Shown in pieces: positions 47,052-52,588 of a stretch of DNA of 64,000 nucleotides. Numbering within the stretch: position 1 is the stretch's first letter; every line of letters starts with the position of its first letter. Location of the stretch: the NCBI GenBank assembly GCA_028820935.1, contig JAPPHZ010000038.1, positions 1 to 64,000 on the forward strand, read 5' to 3'. This DNA comes from a bacterium (GTDB lineage: Bacteria > Actinomycetota > Acidimicrobiia > Spongiisociales > Spongiisociaceae). The translations under genes were made by a program, and so were the position numbers. The notes under the pieces were generated by a model. That model saw only the letters and a list, made by a program, of their open reading frames with translations. It did not search any database and had not been told where the DNA came from.

Positions 47052-47525
47052 CTATTCGATGGTGAGGCTTGAGAGGATTGAGTTCGCCTCCTGGGTAAGG
47101 GGGTGGCGGTGGTGGTAGGAGCCGATCGCGGCGTGGAGGCAGAAGGCCCGACCGGCCGAGTGGAAGAATCGTTGGAGGCCGGCCTGTTCTCGCATGGGCC
47201 GCCGGAGTGCGTTGGGATCGAAGTCGTCGGGTTGTAGTTCGGCGGGGACGCCGTGGTGCTCGAACAGCATGGAGCCGACTGCGCCGGGATCGAACTCCAC
47301 GAGTGCGATGAAGACGCCTGCCGGTCCCATGGCCTCTAACGCCTCGGAGCCGTAGTCGTCACGCTCGTTCGGTAGCCAGGAGTTGGCCGCGTGCAGAACG
47401 ATCAAGCCGTCGCCAGGCGGCGCCGGGCCGGCGTCGGTCTTGTCGGCGTCCTGCTGCAGGGACAGTTCGGCTTCCCAGCCGGTCGGCACGGCCAGACCAA
47501 TCCCGTATGCGGAGAGGCGGTGCAT
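47052..47525 (-). CDS. Hypothetical protein downstream of the mau-like membrane protein
   Basis: A 157-residue soluble protein without signal peptide; I recognise no family. It has AYGIGLAVPTGWEAELSLQ at the start and YHHRHPLTQEANSILSSLTI at the end, typical of a small beta-rich domain. It begins four bases after the stop of the membrane protein and is the last gene of that set, so it is probably co-transcribed with the MauD/MauF-like genes. Confidence 0.7.
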   Translation of the reverse strand: MHRLSAYGIGLAVPTGWEAELSLQQDADKTDAGPAPPGDGLIVLHAANSWLPNERDDYGSEALEAMGPAGVFIALVEFDPGAVGSMLFEHHGVPAELQPDDFDPNALRRPMREQAGLQRFFHSAGRAFCLHAAIGSYHHRHPLTQEANSILSSLTIE

Positions 47526-47529
47526 GCTG

Positions 47530-48195
47530 TCAGGTCACCAGGGCGACCGCGGACAGGGCTGCCAGCAGGGCGGAAGCGAGAGCGCCGAGGCGCCTGGCCC
47601 TCTGCGCGAGGTTGTCGAGCCGGTGATGCAGCCTGGCGAGGTCCGCAGCGTTCCTGACCCGGCCATTCAGTGTCACGGTGAGCCCCCGTATCGCGCCGAA
47701 GGCCGCGCCTACCAACAGTCCACTCATCGGGTCACGGGTCAGCAGGGCGGCCAGCATGAACATGGGAACGAGGGCCGTGTTGACCGCTGTGACGACCGCG
47801 GCACCCAGTTGGAGCCCGTAGCCCCAGCCGTATACCCACGGCCGGAAGGCCGAGAGCCAGTCCTCGTTGACCTGGCGACGGATGGGGAACCGGCGTACCT
47901 TCAGATCCCACACCGCGGCAACCACTCCGGCCAGGGCTAGCGCGGACAGGCGCCAGGTCTCGTCGAGGGTGACGGGTAGGGCTCGCCTGGCTGCGCCTAG
48001 GACGGCGCCCAGAGATGCTCCGCCGACCAGCGTCCCGGCCACCAGCCACGTCACGGTCAGTGGCCAGCGGTTGCCCCGGGCCCGCTCGCCGAGCGGGCTG
48101 ATGCTCGTGAGCATCGAAAGGCCTCAGGGCGACCAGGTGGAGCGGAATCCGGCAACGACCGCGGCGGCGACGCCTACCGCGAAAGAAGTGATCAC
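47530..48195 (-). CDS. Membrane protein of the mau-like cluster with in-frame UGA at a redox position (probable Sec24)
   Basis: Read through the TGA at 48124-48126, this is a 221-residue membrane protein with about six helices. The GTG start overlaps the MauD-like stop (GTGA). The first part is FAVGVAAAVVAGFRSTWSP, then the TGA, then GLSMLTSISPLGERARG, all in one frame. From family memory, actinobacterial homologues read STWSPCGLSML at this point, so the TGA replaces Cys, in a segment like the SPC of CcdA/MauF thiol carriers. No other Cys is present. Without read-through, translation from the ATG at 48114 would lack the first helix. It may alternatively be a nonsense mutation. Confidence 0.75.
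48080..48098 (-). promoter_or_regulatory. Candidate SECIS hairpin after the UGA
   Basis: On the coding strand GCCCGCTC and GAGCGGGC form a perfect 8-bp stem around loop GGC, whose loop lies 34-36 bases after the UGA, inside the window reported for bacterial SECIS loops. A second 6-bp hairpin (GATGCT/AGCATC, loop CACG) sits closer, at 9-24 bases. High GC content makes chance hairpins common, so this is weak support. Confidence 0.4.
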
Positions 48196-50747: not shown

Positions 50748-51326
50748 ATGACCCTCCTAGACCTCACCATGGCGTTCTACGCGGCCGGCTCGCTGTTGCT
50801 CGTCTTCGCCGGGGTAGCGAAGTTGCTCTACCCCCGGCCTGCGGCCGACCTCATGGGCGCCATCGGTTTCCCTGCCCGGGTGTGGTTCGCCCGTGCGGCC
50901 GGTGGCGCGGAGTTGGTACTCGGAGCGACCGCCCTTGCGGCTATCGGGTCCGGGCCGGCGCTCGTCGCGGCCGGCGTTTACTCCCTGTTAGCGATGGTTG
51001 CGCTGCTGGCGGTCAACAGACGTCTCTCTTCTTGCGGATGCTTCGGGCAGGTGGATTCACCACCCTCGTGGATACATGTGATCGGCAACCTCTTCTTCGC
51101 AGCCGTGTGCGTACTGGTGGCAGGAGCGGGCAGTTCGCCACGTGTCTGGATCGGATCCGCGACAGATCATCTGGCTGGCGCAGTTGCGCTGGCTCTCGCT
51201 GTGTGCGTGCTGGCCGGGATGGTCCTCGTGAGCTTCACAGCGGTGCCGGAGTGGCTGCAGGCCAGATCGGCGGGAGGTAGGAGTCCGGAGACGTTCCGGA
51301 TCGAAGCCGCCGGTCTCCGGCGGTAA
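50748..51326 (+). CDS. MauE/DoxX-like membrane protein
   Basis: A 192-residue membrane protein with four or five helices. The Cys96-Gly-Cys98 motif (SSCGCFGQVDSP) in a short loop is the hallmark of MauE-type proteins, which work with MauD in disulfide formation. The N-terminal helix pair (VFAGVAKLLYPRPAADLM) is typical for the DoxX-like superfamily. It is 23 bases ahead of the Cys-rich exported protein and most likely helps fold it. Confidence 0.83.
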   Translation: MTLLDLTMAFYAAGSLLLVFAGVAKLLYPRPAADLMGAIGFPARVWFARAAGGAELVLGATALAAIGSGPALVAAGVYSLLAMVALLAVNRRLSSCGCFGQVDSPPSWIHVIGNLFFAAVCVLVAGAGSSPRVWIGSATDHLAGAVALALAVCVLAGMVLVSFTAVPEWLQARSAGGRSPETFRIEAAGLRR

Positions 51327-51349: not shown

Positions 51350-52588
51350 ATGAGTCGCAAACTCGTCATGAGGGTATCGAGCCTGGTGGACCGCCACACG
51401 TCGCGGCGCGGGTTCCTCCGATCAGTGGTGATGTCCGCGACAGCCATCGCCTTCGCCCCTGCCTACCTCATCCGGCCCATAGCAGCGGAGGCCGCCATCA
51501 TCACATGCCTGGGGCTGCGGTGTTCCTCCGGGTCGGCGTGCTGCGACGGATGGACGGAGTTCTGCTGCAGGCTGACGGGCGAGAACACTTGCCCGCCCGG
51601 GACGGTGGTGGGTGGCTGGTGGAAGGTCAACAATTCTTCGTTCTGCTCCTATGACAAGCCACGACCCCGCTACTACATCGACTGCAACGTCGCGTGCCTG
51701 CCGACTCGCCGGTGCTGGCCGGGAGGCCTCTGCGCGCGTTCGGCGACCGCCGCCTGGTGCCGGTGCCCGGACGGGTGCGACACAAGGAAAGTCGACTGTG
51801 TCCAGTTCCGTTACGGCCAGTGCAACCAGGACACCTGCGTCGGTCCGATCCGCTGCCGGGTCGTCACCTGCGTGCCGCCGTGGCAGTGGGATCCGGCATG
51901 CAGTCGCTGGCCGGCGCTGACCAGCGAGGCGACCCGTCACCACGACCGACCCTGCTTGCACGACTGGTTCAATGACGTGCCCCCTGACGCCTTCTACGCC
52001 GGAGCGGTGCGGTGGATGAGCGACCGGGGCATCGCCGCCGGCCTGACGAACGACCTCTTCGGGCCCGACGAGCCCATGCTTTGGAGGCACTTCGCAACGC
52101 TGCTGTGGTCGTACGCCGTCGGTGCCGCCAAGGGGGCTCCGAGCCCGCTCGACGATCCCAACCCGCGCACGGACTACGAAAAGGCCAGGGACTGGATGGC
52201 CCAACATGGGATCGCGCCGGGGCGGACGGTGCGGTACGTGGGTCCTGCCGGCCGGATCACCCGCGCGGAGGCCATTGTCCTCCTGCACCGGCTGGCTGCG
52301 GTCTCGAATACAAGGTCCCTAGGGGAACCGACCCCCGATGATCTGTATCCCGAAAGGGAGTTGATCACAGAACGACCGCCGTTCCCCGACGTGGCGGACG
52401 GCGCCTGGTACGGAGATGCGTTGGACTGGGCGGCCCGGCGTGGGATCGTTTGGTGGTCGCCTCCCGAGCCGTTCCATCCCGACCGGTTCGTCACCCGATC
52501 CGAGGCAGCCGTCTACCTGCACCGGTTCCACGACCCCTCGACTCCCACCCCCACGTCCCAGCCGGAACCCTCCCAACCATGGCTGTAG
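51350..52588 (+). CDS. Tat-exported Cys-rich protein, MauA-like, with S-layer-homology repeats
   Basis: A 412-residue exported protein. It starts with a Tat signal (HTSRRGFLRSVV then a hydrophobic stretch). Residues 53-202 hold 22 Cys, with ACCDGWTEFCCRLTGENTCP, then GTVVGGWWKV and RYYIDCNVAC, resembling the methylamine dehydrogenase light chain (CPPGT, Trp, YxxDC pattern). From about 207 come three S-layer-homology-like repeats (FNDVPPDAFYAGAVRWM; AQHGIAPGRTVRYVGP; FPDVADGAWYGDALDWA), which would anchor it at the surface. Trp90, Trp91 and others could form a tryptophan-derived cofactor, but this is not shown. No heavy chain or MauG is present. Confidence 0.75.
   Translation: MSRKLVMRVSSLVDRHTSRRGFLRSVVMSATAIAFAPAYLIRPIAAEAAIITCLGLRCSSGSACCDGWTEFCCRLTGENTCPPGTVVGGWWKVNNSSFCSYDKPRPRYYIDCNVACLPTRRCWPGGLCARSATAAWCRCPDGCDTRKVDCVQFRYGQCNQDTCVGPIRCRVVTCVPPWQWDPACSRWPALTSEATRHHDRPCLHDWFNDVPPDAFYAGAVRWMSDRGIAAGLTNDLFGPDEPMLWRHFATLLWSYAVGAAKGAPSPLDDPNPRTDYEKARDWMAQHGIAPGRTVRYVGPAGRITRAEAIVLLHRLAAVSNTRSLGEPTPDDLYPERELITERPPFPDVADGAWYGDALDWAARRGIVWWSPPEPFHPDRFVTRSEAAVYLHRFHDPSTPTPTSQPEPSQPWL

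Follow-up and report, generated by a model that had tools for sequence, protein, structure and literature searches.

Genes at the locus

The window, a 64,000-nt stretch of an Acidimicrobiia contig (GenBank JAPPHZ010000038.1), carries on its minus strand a coding sequence (47530–48195) for a DsbD/MauF-like membrane protein that starts with GTG, ends with TGA and contains an internal TGA predicted to encode selenocysteine (Sec, U). The GTG (48195–48193) lies inside the GTGA that ends the ORF of a membrane-anchored thioredoxin-like (MauD-like) protein (48950–48192, minus strand), an arrangement that translationally couples the two genes. From this start the frame reads VITSFAVGVAAAVVAGFRSTWSP, closing on ...RSTWSP directly before the TGA at codon 24 (48126–48124, minus strand), and then continues as GLSMLTSISPLGERARG... 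for 197 codons up to the terminator at 47532–47530, which makes 221 codons with the internal TGA counted. Read as Sec24, the internal TGA falls in a W-S-P-U-G motif, and no Cys codon occurs elsewhere in the read-through chain. A preliminary description of this DNA had proposed the same frame, from the GTG within GTGA through 23 residues and a TGA into a continued membrane protein without other Cys; the translated sequence agrees on each of these points and supplies the strand, minus, which had been left unstated.

The neighboring genes form a conserved cassette. MauE, a Cys-rich exported protein, the thioredoxin-like protein, the Sec/Cys membrane protein and a small unknown protein of 157 aa (orf157; 47052–47525, minus strand) recur together in lineages with the TGA form and in lineages with the Cys form, in varying order. 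The fifth gene, orf157, stands near the Sec/Cys gene in many cassettes and its product has no match in Pfam or NCBIfam. The MauE family membrane protein (50748–51326, plus strand; Pfam PF07291, 5.5e-12) has a CGCFG motif that reads CGCFG, CGCLG or CGCFS among relatives, and its CGC is conserved, as is the CxxC of the thioredoxin-like protein, the Pfam matches of which are otherwise weak (Thioredoxin_2, best 0.0086 among relatives). The Cys-rich protein (51350–52588, plus strand) has a Tat signal and three SLH repeats (SLH, 7.2e-16), and 14 of its Cys are invariant in 33 relatives. The fusion to three SLH repeats is seen in the window’s genus and the Cys-rich part is common to relatives, several of which appear to carry other C-terminal parts. 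The conserved cassette suggests that the exported Cys-rich protein is subject to disulphide chemistry and is likely the client of these redox proteins.

This set of genes resembles a mau cluster in that it contains MauE, a thioredoxin-like protein with CxxC where a mau cluster has MauD, and an exported Cys-rich protein, the nearest PDB folds of which are the light chains of methylamine and aromatic amine dehydrogenases. This last similarity comes from a low-confidence model (pLDDT 61) at a non-significant E of ~1, and we regard it only as a lead. The cassette differs from a mau cluster in that the Cys-rich protein matches no amine dehydrogenase light chain by sequence in Pfam, NCBIfam or the PDB, and in that one adjacent Trp-Trp pair is its only invariant Trp feature, whereas a TTQ cofactor would require another invariant Trp at a distance from the pair. 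We considered the protein as a methylamine dehydrogenase light chain and found this assignment unsupported by sequence, with nothing beyond the fold hint in its favor.

TGA and Cys codons alternate at a single site

When one genome per species (GTDB 220) was scanned, 66 relatives of the membrane protein were obtained, with the site readable in 65. The four nearest, at 87–91% identity and from separate assemblies, have TGA, and the other 61 have TGC or TGT, with no third state. Within the window’s order, where 39 of 138 genomes gave a match, 27 main-family genes have TGA, at identities down to 35%, versus 9 with Cys at the same site. The class holds 27 further main-family genomes with TGA and 24 with Cys, and in a sample of the phylum outside the class another 20 genomes were verified as TGA. 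Altogether the TGA form is present in 74 sampled Actinomycetota genomes, at identities down to 35–40%, and among main-family homologues with a readable site we found nothing besides TGA, TGC or TGT. The Trp-Ser-Pro 5′ of the site is invariant in 73 sequences. The motif STWSPCGLSML, which the preliminary description had named, is real among homologues, and the TGA indeed stands in the place of their Cys; two outcomes that would have refuted this, homologues with neither Cys nor Sec at the site and random stops in close relatives, were looked for and did not appear, the TGA always falling at the same codon.

A tree of 159 rows requires three changes between the TGA and Cys states: a single supported group unites 80 Cys rows, and 3 further Cys rows lie among TGA rows, with the Sec state occupying about half of the sampled tree. 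Sec is likely ancestral in the sampled main family, which remains unproven because the root is a midpoint root only. In one genome (G389) the gene is present twice, once in the TGA form and once in the Cys form (L194 and L205). Cultured bacteria with the Cys form exist, Nakamurella among them. The gene is absent from five genomes of the window’s own genus (G016, G017, G018, G022 and G024).

A sequencing error at the TGA was rejected, as the same TGA recurs in independent assemblies; this holds at the level of assemblies, since reads were not consulted, and makes a base error very unlikely. Genome-wide recoding of TGA was also rejected, as the Sec gene itself and most of its relatives terminate with TGA. 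The in-frame TGA is more than a chance occurrence, because it is shared by the four nearest relatives, is exchanged only with Cys and recurs through the order, class and phylum. Were the gene nevertheless decayed or split, with the TGA a true stop, the locus would give a 23-residue peptide, a shorter protein from an internal start, or both, and an ATG at codon 28 does open a 194-aa ORF that gene finders would call. Such decay is at odds with the retention of TGA at this codon in 74 genomes, with the invariance of the upstream WSP and with the presence of all sel genes in the genome (see below). Differences between congeners, moreover, fall mostly at third codon positions upstream and downstream of the TGA alike, and a third-position bias on both sides argues that both are translated in one frame. 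We consider a pseudogene extremely unlikely.

Conserved hairpins follow the UGA

Two hairpins make up the putative SECIS region. Hairpin 1 (48100–48115, minus strand; GAUGCU CACG AGCAUC) covers nt 9–24 after the UGA, and hairpin 2 (48081–48097, minus strand; CCCGCUC GGC GAGCGGG) presents its apical loop, GGC, at nt 34–36. In the family these take the forms GAUGCU-4 nt-AGCAUC (nt 9–24) and (C)CCGCUC-GGN-GAGCGG(G) (nt 27–43, loop 34–36). Across 25 distinct sequences 98.2% of hairpin cells are paired, versus 30–45% in slid-partner controls, and the covariation score exceeds that of all 500 shuffles, although it is carried by two pairs and most pairs are invariant. The compensatory changes lie in hairpin 2, where C-G becomes U-A at two pairs; hairpin 1 is paired in 100% of cells in the 25 distinct sequences and is nearly invariant, so that it offers little covariation. 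The 54-nt hairpin region of the window folds at −25.9 kcal/mol, only 1.5 SD below shuffled sequences (z −1.5).

The published model of a bacterial SECIS element specifies a loop of 3–9 nt, a stem of 4–16 bp, a G in the first two loop positions, a distance of 16–37 nt from the UGA and an MFE of at most −7.5 (PMC13188914). Hairpin 2 meets this model with 7 bp, a GGC loop and 33 nt between UGA and loop. The selD gene of the same genome is itself interrupted by an in-frame TGA, and the hairpin downstream of it, whose GGUCU loop lies at nt 33–37 (positions counted by eye), shares the register of hairpin 2. A second subclade of TGA forms, elsewhere in the phylum, has a GGUC apical loop.

The hairpins force synonymous codon choices that are not common to the Cys homologues. 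For Ser31, AGC is used in 54 of 54 TGA forms, versus 5 of 24 Ser codons among the Cys forms; for Leu35, CTC is used in 49 of 50 cases versus 13 of 45, with the caveat that some Cys rows in this comparison are near-duplicates. Five congeners show 0 differences in the 45 nt from the TGA on and 55–73 in the next 477 nt. Conservation of the invariant hairpin pairs could be partly at the protein level; such a contribution is disfavored by the synonymous codon choices, which are independent evidence for the hairpins.

Selenocysteine machinery accompanies the TGA form

The window’s genome (3.3 Mb, 97% complete) encodes a complete Sec machinery, with selA and selB adjoining, a selD in which the in-frame TGA lies at GGG[TGA]ASKL (L082, G000:C36:58143-59072), and a tRNA-Sec(UCA) that scores 76.6 bits (cut-off 47) and is called SeC, anticodon tca, by ARAGORN. 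The window itself contains no tRNA or Rfam match, and the tRNA-Sec is located elsewhere in the genome. The preliminary description had proposed a check for selA, selB, selC and selD, and all four are in this one assembly.

Among 87 genomes selA occurs in 51 of 54 with the TGA form versus 11 of 33 with the Cys form (Fisher p 1e-9; fragments counted as present, no correction for relatedness). The three TGA-form genomes without a selA match are G030 (68% complete), G289 (79%) and G372 (92%), and two others (G014 and G130) have selA fragments only. Cys-form genomes without selA in the window’s order are G141, G142 and G145. In one genome a single contig bears both selA and the TGA-form membrane gene, ~2.6 kb apart (G213:C12:195313-196677 and 199246-199932, L196). 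Four of the five same-genus genomes that lack the Sec gene still have selA, so the cassette cannot be the sole reason to keep the Sec machinery.

Near-cognate tRNAs can read through UGA in bacteria, and the codon might on that general ground be read as an ordinary residue (Trp, Cys or Arg) in place of Sec. Ordinary read-through does not sit well with the Cys of homologues at this site, with the co-occurrence of the TGA form and selA, or with tRNA-Sec(UCA) and selA, selB and selD in the genome; nor does it fit hairpins with GGN or GGUC loops at the SECIS position and a hairpin codon bias that is lost in Cys forms. We judge it highly improbable. The conserved UGA, its replacement by Cys, the hairpins and the machinery are all computational observations, and together the Cys/TGA pairing, the sel genes, the recurrent TGA and the hairpins strongly support the selenocysteine reading that the preliminary description had put forward. 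We are confident, without experimental proof, that the window gene encodes a selenoprotein in which the UGA at codon 24 specifies Sec.

A membrane protein with one redox residue

AlphaFold2 predicts the read-through protein to be helical with high confidence (pLDDT 94, pTM 0.90); a break in the helix falls at residue 22, shortly ahead of Sec24. Foldseek found no significant PDB match to this model. In profile searches 16 of 73 members match DsbD_2 (PF13386; best 6.6e-7), and relatives also match DsbD_TM (PF02683; best 1.3e-4); the window protein itself falls below the cut-off for DsbD_2 (0.039). Judged from these sequence profiles, a kinship to DsbD/CcdA appears weak but real. Like CcdA and DsbD, the window protein is a small polytopic membrane protein with a thioredoxin-like partner, a Pro-Cys (here Pro-Sec) at the break of the first membrane helix and profile matches that are weak but repeated in its family. 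The family is unlike them in its single conserved redox residue, in the occurrence of Sec at that residue in about half of its sampled tree and in the lack of a significant PDB fold match for the window model. The alignment of 73 sequences has one invariant Cys/Sec column and no second conserved redox Cys, and 34 of 58 TGA forms lack Cys elsewhere in the chain. CcdA and DsbD work with two Cys. The window protein thus resembles a membrane thiol transporter and fails one defining feature of CcdA/DsbD, and because it has a single redox residue the two-Cys mechanism of CcdA is impossible for it. The label MauF/CcdA-like in the preliminary description finds only partial support, from the weak DsbD profile matches and in the absence of the second redox Cys of CcdA/DsbD; no MauF model appeared in Pfam and NCBIfam scans of the family, and a search of plasmid records for MauF or MauE gave no match.

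From fold family, motif and gene company we infer that the Sec protein is a thiol carrier, a role that we regard as reasonably probable. A different role for Sec24, as a ligand or catalytic residue, for example in cofactor or metal handling during maturation of the Cys-rich protein, is an alternative at the level of function alone and does not conflict with the presence of Sec. It would account for the single redox residue without a second conserved Cys, for the absence of a significant structural match to CcdA/DsbD and for the nearest (non-significant) folds of the Cys-rich protein, since amine dehydrogenase light chains bear a protein-derived cofactor. Several observations speak against such a role: relatives match DsbD_2 and DsbD_TM, a thioredoxin-like protein with CxxC and a MauE with CGC are constantly encoded alongside, and Sec and Cys interchange at this position as they do in other redox proteins that work through thiols. 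We hold it to be possible and on balance unlikely.

Discussion

For the thiol-carrier reading we propose the following mechanism. The ribosome would decode the UGA at codon 24 as Sec by means of SelB, tRNA-Sec(UCA) and the stem-loop ~34 nt downstream. The product would be a DsbD/CcdA-like multi-helix membrane protein, with Sec24 as its single redox residue at the Trp-Ser-Pro break of the first membrane helix. By inference, Sec24 most likely relays electrons or disulphides between the CGC of MauE and the CxxC of the extramembrane thioredoxin-like protein, in a direction that we leave unassigned, and this partner would in turn make or correct the disulphide bonds of the Tat-exported Cys-rich protein.

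A 2026 catalogue and review lists 119 prokaryotic selenoprotein families (PMC13188914, Table 1), none of which, as described, is a membrane protein of the DsbD/MauF-like type bearing WSPUG. Among them is TsoB, a rhodanese/DsbD fusion-like selenoprotein with two Sec in UxxxxU (PMC13188914), which shares with the window protein the UGA-coded Sec, a SECIS element and a DsbD-like part, and differs from it by its second Sec and its rhodanese domain. The family is not mentioned in the open-access texts of the selenoprotein surveys of 2006, 2016 and 2025, a search of the open-access literature on MauF, CcdA or Acidimicrobiia in connection with selenocysteine found nothing relevant, and not one of 73 members scores above the cut-off of an NCBIfam model.

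Beyond the main family, an in-frame TGA also occurs in distant Actinomycetota homologues, at the aligned position or close to it and in other contexts: FGP, YGP, YSP or WGP[TGA]G (L237-L246, L256), LWSP[TGA]GLSxxET (L198-L200, L247, L248, L255), SNP[TGA]G (L129) and STG[TGA]G (L249). In several of them, comparable hairpins follow the TGA and a gene for a thioredoxin-like protein is close by. These Sec motifs (FGPUG, LWSPUGLSVTET, NPUG and others) suggest a larger Sec superfamily. In three remote matches (L207, L208 and L250) a TGA lies upstream of the matched stretch, as SLSGS[T/V]-TGA-..NSAG or TLP-TGA-GPNA, in an upstream frame that is unverified; these are possibly another Sec family. As the broadest interpretation we favor, with some reserve, an unrecognised Actinomycetota superfamily of single-Sec DsbD-like membrane proteins (WSPUG, FGPUG, NPUG and others) with thioredoxin-like partners, in which Sec is ancestral in the sampled main family and Cys derived, so that exported Cys-rich proteins owe their maturation to selenium chemistry within the membrane.

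Annotation is probably missing a widespread selenoprotein family, present in dozens of related genomes, most of which have the genes for making Sec. Standard annotation would truncate or drop such genes, so that a selenoprotein family reaching well beyond one Actinomycetota class would stay invisible. If our reading is true, the Sec gene would be a reason for the retention of Sec machinery in many TGA-form genomes. The contribution of selenium to thiol transport could then be studied in a simple setting, a redox protein of the membrane in which a single Sec stands without any Cys, and the comparison would be direct, since the five-gene cassette occurs in nature both with Sec and with Cys.
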